Part shown: positions 23,632-44,484 of the stretch, piece by piece
How the letters are laid out: every line of letters starts with the position of its first letter
How positions within the stretch are numbered: position 1 is the first letter of the stretch
Source of the DNA: an uncultured Sporosarcina sp.
GTDB lineage: Bacteria; Bacillota; Bacilli; Bacillales_A; Planococcaceae
Assembly: GCA_947644645.1 (NCBI GenBank)
Contig: CANSAF010000001.1
Location: 103,311 to 167,310, forward strand
Length of the DNA stretch: 64,000 bases
Direction: 5' to 3'
The notes under the pieces: model-generated
What the model saw: only the letters and a program-made list of their open reading frames with translations
Told to the model about the DNA's origin: nothing
Databases searched by the model: none
Made by a program: the position numbers and the translations under genes

Positions 23632-23808
23632 TTAAAGCTCTTGATAATCTCTCTGATGACGACCACCATCTTTAATTTCTGCATGATATAAAGCTTTAAG
23701 CGCATAATGTCGCTCTAGCTCAAGTTCTTTCATGATCTTTTTTAAACGTGCATCTAATTTTGGACTGATTTTCATCAGTTTCTCCATTTTTTCTGCTGAA
23801 TATTTCAT
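23632..23808 (-). CDS. Small charged protein of unknown function (58 aa)
   Basis: This short gene has an excellent ribosome site (AAGGAGG, seven bases before the ATG at 23808). It encodes 58 residues beginning MKYSAEKMEKLMKISPKLDA, strongly helical and rich in Lys, Glu and His, without a membrane segment or cysteine. The sequence looks like two amphipathic helices with a basic end (GGRHQRD). It is convergent with fumC and divergent from the Dph6-like gene; the GAGTTCTC array lies between. I do not recognise a family. The ribosome site, clean codon structure and isolation on the minus strand support it being real. Confidence 0.7.
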   Translation of the reverse strand: MKYSAEKMEKLMKISPKLDARLKKIMKELELERHYALKALYHAEIKDGGRHQRDYQEL

Positions 23809-23901: not shown

Positions 23902-24030
23902 GAGTTCTCGGAAAAAGTGTTTGAGTTCTCATAAAAGTGTCGCGAGTTCTCAGAATATGTATCTGAGTTCTCAAGTTTCCCATGAGTTCTCAAAAAAACA
24001 GTCGGGAGTCCTGATATCAGGCGAGTTCTC
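23902..24030. repeat. Array of seven GAGTTCTC-type boxes at about 21-bp spacing
   Basis: Six exact GAGTTCTC copies start at 23902, 23923, 23944, 23965, 23984 and 24023, with one degenerate copy (GAGTCCTG) at 24006. Start-to-start distances are 21, 21, 21, 19, 22 and 17 bp, close to two DNA turns. The box itself is nearly palindromic (GAG-TT-CTC). Spacers between the first copies share AAAAGTGT-like sequence. The array ends just before the -35 region of the Dph6-like gene (TTACGG 24037-24042, TATAAT 24061-24066). It is not a CRISPR: repeats are 8 bp and spacers about 13 bp. Function unknown. Confidence 0.85.
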
Positions 24031-24100
24031 ACATCATTACGGGATGAAAGTCAGTCATGTTATAATGATAGAAATAAAAGACTACTATCGGGGTGTAAAT

Positions 24101-24778
24101 ATGAAAAACAAATCATTCGTGGCATCGTGGAGTGGTGGGAAGGATTCTGCCTTAGCTTACGATCGAGCGTTTCAAATGGGTGGGGTTCCTAAAAAGATTT
24201 GGACGATGTTTGAAGAAGATGAAATTCGTTCAAAATCGCATGCACTTCCACTTGAAATTGTCGAAGCTCAAGCAAGGCAACTAGAAGTTCCACTCATGAT
24301 TCGTGGTGCAGATTGGGCAAGTTATCAGGAAAAGTTTTTAGACGCGATGGAGAATTGCGTGAAAGAAGGCATTCCATATGGGGTATTCGGGGATATTGAT
24401 TTGGAAGACCATTTGGAATGGGTACAAAAAACCTGTGAAAAAGTCGGAATGGAAGCGATCCACCCACTTTGGTTGGAACCGCGTCGCCAATTATTGGAGG
24501 AGTTTATCGACAAAGGGTTTGTCGCATATGTCATTGTTGTCAATACAAAAATGATGCCAAAACGGTTTATTGGTAGAAAGTTTACGATTCAATTAATGGA
24601 TGAGTTGGAAGCGCTTGAGATTGATTCGTGCGGAGAATCGGGGGAATTCCATACCGTTGTCGTTGATGGACCAATTTTTAAAGAAGCAATTCCAGTTGTA
24701 TTTGGGGAAGTGATTGAGCGAGATGGTTATGTATTTCAACAAATGTCTTTAGATGAATCGAGGAATTTAGATGAGTAA
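24101..24778 (+). CDS. Dph6-like ATP pyrophosphatase (diphthine-ammonia ligase family)
   Basis: Start ATG 24101 follows GGGGTG; an open frame extends back to 23870 but runs through the GAGTTCTC array and is not believed. The 225-residue protein has the PP-loop SWSGGKDSALAYDRAF (Ser11 to Ser16 core), then FGDIDLEDHLEWVQ and near the C terminus CGESGEFHTVVVDGPIF, both hallmarks of the Dph6/MJ0570 family. In eukaryotes and archaea Dph6 uses ATP and ammonia to amidate diphthine on elongation factor 2. Bacteria have no known diphthamide, so the bacterial role is unknown. The gene overlaps by 8 bp a Tet/EF-G-like GTPase gene, which is striking given the family's known substrate. Confidence 0.88.
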   Translation: MKNKSFVASWSGGKDSALAYDRAFQMGGVPKKIWTMFEEDEIRSKSHALPLEIVEAQARQLEVPLMIRGADWASYQEKFLDAMENCVKEGIPYGVFGDIDLEDHLEWVQKTCEKVGMEAIHPLWLEPRRQLLEEFIDKGFVAYVIVVNTKMMPKRFIGRKFTIQLMDELEALEIDSCGESGEFHTVVVDGPIFKEAIPVVFGEVIERDGYVFQQMSLDESRNLDE

Positions 24779-26708
24779 AACAATCGGTATATTAGCGCAT
24801 GTGGATGCAGGGAAAACTTCATTTTCAGAGCAATTACTTTATCATACCAATCAGATACGTCAAAGAGGGCGCGTTGACCATCAAGACGCTTTTATGGACA
24901 ATCATGAAATCGAGAAAAAACGTGGCATTACAGTCTTTGCGGACCAAGCGATTTTCAACTACGGTGAATCCACTTATACATTAATTGACACACCTGGGCA
25001 CGTCGACTTTTCTCCAGAAATGGAGCGTGCCATTCAAGTGATGGATTATGCGGTTGTGATTGTGAGTGCAGTGGAAGGTGTCGAAGGGCATACCGAAACA
25101 GTTTGGCAACTTCTACGAAAACATCAAGTCCCGACATTTTTCTTTGTGAATAAAATAGACAGAGAAGGCGCAGATGTAGAAAACGTGCTCAATGATATTC
25201 GTCATAATTTAAGTGAAAATGTGTATGATTTCACCAATGATTTTAAAGATGGTGTAATGGCAGAAAATCTAATTGAATTCATTGCTGAACGCGATGAAAT
25301 GCTTTTAGAAAAGTATCTTGAAGGAGCGTATGATGAGCACTTATGGAATGATCAATTAAAGAAGATGATCCAAGCGAATGAATTATTCGTTTGCCTATCA
25401 GGTTCCGCGTTACAAGATATAGGGATTACAGAGTTTTTATCGACATTCGACTTATTAACAGAGACAAAATATCAAAATGATGCATCTTTCACAGCAAGCG
25501 TTTATAAAATTCGCCATGATGAAAATGGTCAACGCGTCACATTTTTAAAGTCACTTAGTGGCATTTTGAAGACGCGCGATGAAATTACATATAATCAGCA
25601 AACCGAAAAAGTAACCGACATTCGACTTTATAATGGACATAAATATGAAAGTGTTCACCAAGTTGCGGCGGGAACGATTTTTGCGGTGACTGGGCTTTCT
25701 AATCTGCAAGTCGGAGATAGTATCGGCACTAGTGATAAGGCTAATTTCGAGTTAATGCCAACTTTAACATCGACAGTTTTATTTGATTCATCCTTTCATG
25801 CAAAAGAAGTCTTACAAGTATTTAATCTTTTAGATGCGGAAGATCCTTCTCTACGTGTTTTATGGAATGAACATTTTGGTGAAATTCATGTGCATGTCAT
25901 GGGAACGATTCAACTAGAAGTGTTAAAACAAGTGGTGCTGGACCGATTTGGAATGGATATCGATTTTGGAACACCGAAAATACTATATAAAGAAACAATC
26001 CGTGAACAAGTCATCGGTTATGGTCATTTTGAACCGCTTCGTCATTATGCAGAAGTACATTTGAAAATTGAACCATCTGAACGAAATAGTGGGATTCAGT
26101 TTGAAAATGAATGTCATGCGAATGATTTATTAGTCGGGCATCAAAACCTAGTGCGCCACCATTTATTCGAGCGTACACATCATGGTTTATTAACAGGTTC
26201 AGGATTAACGGATGTGAAAATTACCTTAATAACAGGTCGTGCACATCATGAACATACGGCAGGCGGAGATTTTAGAGAAGCCACATACCGGGCGCTGCGC
26301 CAAGGTCTTGAACAAGCTGACAATATTTTATTGGAACCTTATTATACGTTTAAAATAAAAGTTCATATCGATTTAATGGGACGAATTTTATCAGATATTC
26401 AACAAGCGTCTGGTACTTTTGAACCGCCTGAAACGATTGGCAGCCAAACAATTTTGACTGGACACGTACCTGTCGCAACATTTATGGATTATAGCTCAAC
26501 TTTTGCTTCCATTACAGGTGGGAAGGGTGCGCTTAGCTTGAAGTTTAGCGGTTATGATGTTTGCCATAATGCAGAAGATGTAATTGAAGAGATTGGTTAC
26601 GATAAAAATGCCGATCCAGAATATACCTCATCATCGATTTTTTGCGCGAAAGGAAAAGGGTACTCAGTTCCTTGGGACGAAGCAAAAGAAGCGATGCATT
26701 GTTTATAA
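24771..26708 (+). CDS. Tet/EF-G-like translational GTPase (ribosomal protection family)
   Basis: A 645-residue translation factor GTPase of the TetM/TetP/OtrA type. The G domain has AHVDAGKTSFSEQLL (G1, about residues 9-23), KRGITV (G2), DTPGHVDFSPEMERAI (G3) and NKID (G4); EF-G-like domains II to V follow. The domain IV tip reads GRAHHEHTAGGDFREATYRA with three histidines at 492, 493 and 495, in the region corresponding to the diphthamide loop of EF-2. The family removes tetracycline from ribosomes or acts on stalled ribosomes; chromosomal members in Bacillales are of unclear function. It is translationally coupled to the Dph6-like gene. Confidence 0.9.
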   Translation: MSKTIGILAHVDAGKTSFSEQLLYHTNQIRQRGRVDHQDAFMDNHEIEKKRGITVFADQAIFNYGESTYTLIDTPGHVDFSPEMERAIQVMDYAVVIVSAVEGVEGHTETVWQLLRKHQVPTFFFVNKIDREGADVENVLNDIRHNLSENVYDFTNDFKDGVMAENLIEFIAERDEMLLEKYLEGAYDEHLWNDQLKKMIQANELFVCLSGSALQDIGITEFLSTFDLLTETKYQNDASFTASVYKIRHDENGQRVTFLKSLSGILKTRDEITYNQQTEKVTDIRLYNGHKYESVHQVAAGTIFAVTGLSNLQVGDSIGTSDKANFELMPTLTSTVLFDSSFHAKEVLQVFNLLDAEDPSLRVLWNEHFGEIHVHVMGTIQLEVLKQVVLDRFGMDIDFGTPKILYKETIREQVIGYGHFEPLRHYAEVHLKIEPSERNSGIQFENECHANDLLVGHQNLVRHHLFERTHHGLLTGSGLTDVKITLITGRAHHEHTAGGDFREATYRALRQGLEQADNILLEPYYTFKIKVHIDLMGRILSDIQQASGTFEPPETIGSQTILTGHVPVATFMDYSSTFASITGGKGALSLKFSGYDVCHNAEDVIEEIGYDKNADPEYTSSSIFCAKGKGYSVPWDEAKEAMHCL

Positions 26709-44390: not shown

Positions 44391-44481
44391 AAAGGATGTT
44401 TATAAAGGATGTTTATAAAGGTATATTTGAACAAAAAAGATTAAAGGATGTTTATAAAGGTATATTTGAACAAAAAAGATT
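44391..44481. repeat. Perfect 39-bp tandem duplication with an extra 13-bp partial copy
   Basis: A 39-bp unit at 44404-44442 is repeated exactly at 44443-44481. Its first 13 bases (AAAGGATGTTTAT) also occur immediately before it at 44391-44403. The repeat is non-coding, ends four bases before the upstream Fur box, and looks like recent slippage. The perfect identity suggests it is young. Confidence 0.95.
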
Positions 44482-44484
44482 AAT

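Follow-up and report, generated by a model that had tools for sequence, protein, structure and literature searches.

An array of GAGTTCTC boxes in Sporosarcina is a small member of a dispersed class of intergenic repeat arrays

Bacterial genomes are known to carry dispersed repeats between their genes, in most cases belonging to a single sequence family. REP/BIME elements lie between genes, favor 3' and convergent gene ends and consist of larger palindromic units with RAYT transposases, and the BIMEs of E. coli have been linked to gyrase. Rows of direct repeats of about 20 bp also occur as iterons at plasmid origins, where they are bound by protein on one helical face, while CRISPR repeats of about 23-50 bp alternate with unique spacers of similar length. 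STAR elements have a GC-rich core of 14 bp, T(G/A/T)TGTTG(G/T)GGCCC(C/A), and successive cores stand 40 bp or more apart (PMC3532100). The TAACTGA direct repeats of marine Beggiatoaceae consist of a single heptamer upstream of genes, where its authors consider that a post-transcriptional regulator might bind (PMC4679880).

Here we analyzed a 64,000-nucleotide stretch of DNA (the window) from an uncultured Sporosarcina sp., which contains an array of the 8-bp box GAGTTCTC. The array is real, lies well above chance and represents a wider class of such arrays, of which it is a small example. Like STAR elements, the arrays are dispersed between genes and have locus-specific spacers, but the core (GAGTTCTC) and the spacing (21 bp) are not those of STAR.

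The window array and its surroundings

Six exact GAGTTCTC boxes lie on the plus strand, starting at 23902, 23923, 23944, 23965, 23984 and 24023, and the box occurs nowhere else in the window. Shuffled windows contained 1.09 copies on average and 4 at most, and none of 100 shuffles reached six. The count of six exact boxes and one degenerate box (GAGTCCTG) made in the initial annotation is confirmed, as are the absence of the box from the rest of the window and the box-to-box steps of 21, 21, 21, 19, 22 and 17 bp. The helical phasing it proposed holds for the first four boxes, which keep an exact 21-bp pitch, but not for the later steps of 19, 22 and 17 bp, which are off by -2, +1 and -4 bp; Tandem Repeats Finder (TRF) called the array at 23902-23973 with a period of 21. 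Its statement that the spacers share AAAAGTGT likewise held in part, applying to the first two spacers and weakly to the third but not to the remaining ones. The first four boxes place the array in the class described below (at least four cores, 20/21-bp pitch, intergenic, conserved core and variable spacers), and an unbiased finder recovered the array; it is a small, partly dephased member that is probably decaying or aging.

Table 1. Coordinates of the window array, its neighbors and the strand-switching arrays of a related genome
Feature	Position	Strand	Remark
58-aa ORF, left neighbor, outside the array	23632..23808	-	Pfam, NCBIfam: no match
Five exact GAGTTCTC boxes	23902..23991	+	First four at 21-bp pitch, fifth 19 bp further
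Degenerate box	24006..24013	+	GAGTCCTG
Sixth exact GAGTTCTC box	24023..24030	+	30 bp upstream of TATAAT hexamer
TATAAT hexamer, possible -10 of Dph6-like gene	24061..24066	+	Hexamer alone
Dph6-like ATP pyrophosphatase gene, right neighbor	24101..24778, ATG at 24101	+	PF01902 (searched from second codon)
EF-G-like GTPase gene, right neighbor, overlaps end of Dph6-like gene	24771..26708	+	Profile match
Strand-switching TTATGCG arrays of genome G224	290575/290630, 327119/327153, 330553/330587, 402930/402964, 716219/716274, 2052317/2052392		

The 58-aa ORF and the Dph6-like gene diverge from the gap that holds the array. It had been annotated as ending directly at a promoter. A TATAAT hexamer does follow the last box, but a consensus promoter scan found no full plus-strand promoter at 24061-24066, so that "at the promoter" comes down to the -10 hexamer. 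The same scan gave a promoter-like minus-strand site at 23869-23840, on the opposite side of the array, and such sites were no commoner than in shuffles. Six neighboring genes were scanned with Pfam; five matched non-cas families and one matched nothing. The top NCBIfam match of the EF-G-like GTPase was the tetracycline ribosomal-protection family, a name that is unwarranted here because its 451 bits are well under the cut-off of 775. Elsewhere, the window contains a Bacillaceae-1 small RNA (RF01690, 61525-61591, plus strand, 74.7 bits) and a perfect 39-bp tandem repeat of 2.1 copies (44403-44483).

Several readings of the repeat could be tested against its sequence. The repeat does not fit a CRISPR array, for which the initial annotation had also judged it too short and tight: the core has 8 bp, and the spacers, most of them 13 bp long, reappear and take turns within arrays. 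A coding minisatellite with a seven-residue repeat was rejected on the 24, 96 and 85 stops found in the three forward frames among 262 distinct units. Folding of the window array gave z-scores of -3.2 (plus) and -3.5 (minus) against dinucleotide shuffles, but 164 of 400 box-preserving shuffles folded as low or lower, which argues against an RNA hairpin particular to this array and favors DNA over RNA as the acting form. Across families (30 shuffles each, first 130 nt, core strand), mean z was -1.4 for GAGTTCTC (33 arrays), -2.1 for TTATGCG (26 arrays), +0.4 for TTGAGCGC (16 arrays) and +0.8 for GAATGGACC (9 arrays). RNA structure was rejected as a class-wide explanation; the TTATGCG arrays fold well on the core strand, and that family may have an RNA role. 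An Rfam scan of the window and three array-bearing stretches (L209, L246, L254) returned three matches, none of them over an array. Finally, the A/T harmonic at 10-10.5 bp, calculated without the 41-bp composites described below, was raised over 18 families (mean share 0.21 vs 0.10, p = 1e-4) and dominant in only seven of them. It was absent from the GAGTTCTC family (0.10), and an intrinsic bend was not accepted for the window array.

Many cores at a narrow pitch

In the genome to which the window belongs (3.36 Mb, 160 contigs), no other GAGTTCTC pairs at 17-24 bp were found, and the window array is the sole GAGTTCTC array; single boxes numbered 43, six of them in the array, compared with 24 for the reversed pattern. 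Among 261 family genomes, GAGTTCTC tandem pairs were present in 11, comprising 9 of the 68 in genus Sporosarcina (own genome included) and 2 outside it, and the reversed-pattern control was empty in all 261. The two genomes outside the genus look unrelated, with a spacing of 26 in one (G055) and a part of a different repeat in the other (G252), and other families of the same taxonomic class had no pairs in 56 genomes. The richest genomes were G216 (137 pairs), G176 (119) and G224 (82), and the five remaining relatives had 1 to 7. The count of arrays in related genomes that the initial annotation had proposed as a check thus found phased GAGTTCTC strongly enriched in these 9 genomes. Among the matches listed, the unit pitch was 21 bp at nearly all places. 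The logo of the 262 distinct units reads RAGTTCTC-R-TT, a variable stretch and RAA, with core and spacer sharply bounded, and the unit is readable as a near-dyad, AAnGAG-TT-CTCnTT. In the draft genome G176, arrays were seen at contig ends, and in six stretches (L212, L221, L223, L243, L252, L258) GAATGGACC arrays are neighbors of GAGTTCTC arrays. Four IMG/VR viral contigs carry three GAGTTCTC boxes at 21-bp pitch (L339-L342). Arrays of 21-bp period also appeared in unrelated bacteria, namely Planctomycetaceae and Tannerellaceae MAGs, Amycolatopsis taiwanensis and a cyanobacterium (L094, L102, L115, L119, L120, L143, L149, L187, L194); these were fetched by the GAGTTCTC pair pattern, which preselects the pitch, and some of the loci hold arrays with other cores, such as AATTGGTACC in L194.

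An unbiased finder, which requires four or more units with an 8-nt core in common and allows any period from 12 to 45, returned 32 arrays in 240 kb of G216, 39 in 280 kb of G224, 5 in 464 kb of the own genome, 7 in 400 kb of ten other Sporosarcina genomes and 5 in 330 kb of other genera of the family. The period was 20, 21, 40, 41 or 42 in 82 of these 88 arrays, in stretches that had not been picked for arrays of other cores; two of the 82 (L281/L282, 42-bp) were later judged coding-like and were left out of the family, period and unit-likeness counts. After base shuffling, no five-unit arrays were found in G216, G224 or the window, and none of four or five units in the own genome, the one genome covered by the four-unit control. 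The five arrays of the own genome are the window array, two with GCACTGAAAA and one with CCTAAAGTT at period 21, and one at period 25. Searching the same genome by pattern gave 14 CACTGAAA pairs, spread over seven contigs and spaced by about 21 bp, with an empty control, and GCACTGAAA arrays are also present. Given the CACTGAAA pairs and the finder arrays, the own genome carries the array class mainly with another core.

Sorted by eye and pattern, the cores fall into about 19 families, of which GAGTTCTC is one. Two families have a single period (TTATGCG, 20 in 26/26; TTAYCACCG, 21 in 19/19). The period of GAGTTCTC was 21 in 31 of 33 arrays, the other two being 41-bp composites, and that of GAATGGACC was 41 in seven of nine. 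The TTGAGCGC group, as sorted, was mixed, with eight arrays at 20, four at 21 and four at 41. In G224, some TTATGCG arrays change strand midway, so that their halves stand head to head; where the change occurs, the starts are separated by 34, 55 or 75 bp (Table 1). Pairs of TTTATGCG occurred in 23 of 200 family genomes and 6 of 17 genera, several genomes having a single pair and the reversed control not being empty. That control matched in about 26 rows, with 20 to 28 matches each in G084, G089 and G103 (genus g13), apparently from another array family. Besides Sporosarcina, the sampled stretches of other genera in the family also contain the class.

Gene ends, turnover and growth

We found that 66 of 68 arrays, counting all cores in contiguous stretches of G216 and G224, lie between called genes. 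Among gaps of at least 50 bp, 22 of 59 convergent gaps held an array, compared with 27 of 205 gaps between codirectional genes and 8 of 78 between divergent ones (convergent vs rest, p = 2.3e-5), and the enrichment was robust to changes in the gap-length cut or subtraction of array length (p from 1.5e-6 to 2.6e-4). The genes were called with a simple codon-score caller, and G216 and G224 are close relatives whose counts are not independent; G224 is rated 83% complete with 9% contamination. In the stretches picked for GAGTTCTC there were 32 arrays of this core, window included. Both neighbors were called for 27 of them, with 11 in convergent, 13 in codirectional and 3 in divergent gaps, and the window array belongs to this last minority. 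In a convergent gap neither flanking gene has its promoter. The placement therefore argues against promoter control as a general function. For a possible terminator role, a blunt detector placed an intrinsic terminator between gene end and array at 34 of 80 flanks. At 5 of 80 the terminator was within the array or beyond it on the same strand, and in array-free gaps 82 of 226 gene ends had one.

With respect to the origin of G224 (dnaA at 487 kb), 36 of 46 TTATGCG loci fell in the origin half among the matches listed, which cover most of 104 pairs (p = 1.6e-4). For GAGTTCTC in G216, with the origin set at 490 kb and dnaA at 445 kb, the origin half held 13 of 20 among the matches listed (to 2.92 Mb), which is not significant (p = 0.26). 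Orientation set by the replication strand was rejected, being consistent near 0-100 kb but mixed among the G224 matches listed. The only match to the dnaA C-terminus in G224 (C1:487470-487646) has two internal stops, pointing to possible sequence errors in the assembly and in agreement with its low completeness rating.

Orthologous sites were compared for 31 G216 arrays, 22 of which had comparable syntenic flanks in G224; of the others, seven had no matching flank, one was not syntenic and one lay at an edge. The same core family, as read from the cores, occupied 15 of the 22 sites (two of them by eye only), four arrays in three gaps stood opposite another family, and three stood opposite an empty or very short gap. 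Core identity at orthologous arrays was 379/404 (94%) and spacer identity 409/582 (70%; p about 1e-21), as measured on eight same-family pairs chosen from the 15, with alignments that may favor cores and sites that are not independent. At the dph6 locus, no GAGTTCTC array was present within 1.5 kb of the orthologue in any of 29 relatives examined (65 had a match). Two of them have a single box, and the nearest orthologue is only 76% identical. A TTATGCG-type array was seen within 1.5 kb of dph6 in six of the 29, at a slightly looser setting and with no control.

Within arrays, unit i was closer to unit i+2 than to unit i+1 in 94 of 124 arrays tested, an ABAB pattern that growth by two-unit duplication would give. 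This test drew on a pooled set of 146 arrays that included stretches picked for GAGTTCTC; L239, which overlaps L248/L249, was omitted, and the 41-bp composites were kept out of the two-period autocorrelation (ac(2p)). The suggestion in the initial annotation that the array grew by duplication is probable.

Possible roles and comparison with known systems

Our main reading, to which we give a probability of roughly 50%, is that the window array belongs to a dispersed intergenic class whose cores are putative protein sites on one helical face, acting between transcription units. Directly observed are the class itself, its narrow pitch, its intergenic and convergent placement, the keeping of the core as spacers drift, the ABAB pattern and the turnover at fixed sites; core conservation, spacer drift, placement and pitch together suggest sites for protein along one face of the helix. 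Conserved cores, each about 8 to 12 bp long, that recur at a pitch of 20 or 21 bp, or about two helical turns, with variable spacers, would allow one or more sequence-specific DNA-binding proteins to line up on that face and bind cooperatively. Such binding may act on the DNA between transcription units, in nucleoid organization or in a topological or boundary role, and not on one promoter. New units would come from local duplication, with selection retaining the core. Genomes differ in the set of cores they use. Binding by a protein, as initially annotated, is plausible, and a chromosome-organizing protein, one of the two suggestions made there, would fit better than an operon regulator. Awkward for the protein-site reading are the many unrelated cores per genome, if a single protein is meant, and the putative binder for which no candidate is nominated; the 20-bp families are not exactly two turns of 10.5 bp, and the TTGAGCGC group is mixed.

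A distinct possibility is that the arrays are functionless or selfish minisatellites, expanding and contracting by slippage or unequal exchange, tolerated past gene ends and inheriting their pitch from a few ancestral arrays. The ABAB pattern, the gain, loss and family change at orthologous sites and the preference for convergent gaps, where insertions harm least, all agree with such an origin, and several cores look alike by eye, so that families may share descent. Plain slippage, however, leaves unexplained why cores are so much better kept than spacers, and the sharp bounds of core and spacer in the unit logo and the same narrow pitch in about 19 core families speak against it as well. We regard as unlikely the alternative that the arrays, by their phased bendability, attract gyrase or a nucleoid protein and so remove supercoils that build up where genes converge. 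It would account for the convergent-gap enrichment, the raised harmonic and the concentration of listed G224 TTATGCG loci in the origin half, but the harmonic is missing from GAGTTCTC and dominant in a minority of families, the listed GAGTTCTC loci of G216 have no significant origin bias, and the link to gyrase would be one of analogy with the E. coli BIMEs. Least probable, and in our view very unlikely, is the proposal of the initial annotation that a cooperative regulator uses the array as an operator for the Dph6-like/GTPase operon. Four units are in phase in a divergent gap just before the TATAAT of the Dph6-like gene, and the distance to the nearest orthologue leaves room for a species-specific regulator. 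Against this, the 29 orthologous loci examined lack the array, the box recurs in relatives at many unrelated sites, mostly not before promoters and with convergent gaps preferred, and phase is lost in the very units nearest the promoter. The tie to this operon is therefore not upheld. Absence from orthologous regions together with no phased enrichment elsewhere had been named as evidence against the proposal; the absence was found, but phased GAGTTCTC is enriched elsewhere. A local promoter effect at the window site is possible, for a copy that is dephased and in a divergent gap.

If the cores are protein sites, a wider and more doubtful reading is that of a family-wide chromosome system in which the pitch of about two turns matters and the word is free to change, as a lineage-specific organizing code with co-evolving DNA-binding proteins. 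Such a code would cover the per-lineage words, their replacement at fixed sites, the convergent gene ends and the origin half for one word in one species. Unlike the usual single-family repeats, these arrays use many core words at nearly one pitch; the words stay put as the spacers change, and one word can replace another at a site. The arrays point to a physical rule (helical phasing), to a protein family whose specificity changes quickly or to an unusual form of repeat growth. They are easily mistaken for regulatory sites, as happened initially at this locus, and can serve as markers of repeat turnover.

Iterons resemble the arrays in their repeat rows; the arrays differ in occupying many dispersed chromosomal sites with many cores, and no initiator gene was seen beside the window array and no plasmid record resembling the window stretch was found; a mobile element was likewise considered and rejected. 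REP/BIME elements are alike in placement, but the arrays have short cores and a two-turn pitch. Among the matches listed in the open-access literature none described these arrays, and neither do the accessible portions of PMC11417379 and PMC4060949. TAACTGA repeats resemble the arrays in having two to six copies of a short word at many intergenic loci with no clear category of neighboring gene, but they consist of one word, whereas the arrays use many cores and favor convergent gaps (PMC4679880). Closest in behavior are the STAR elements of Staphylococcus, which, like the arrays, are dispersed intergenic direct repeats whose core is conserved, whose spacers are specific to the locus, whose copy number at a locus changes and whose sites differ between species; STAR has one 14-bp core and long spacers, whereas the arrays described here have many cores at a 20/21-bp pitch (PMC3532100).
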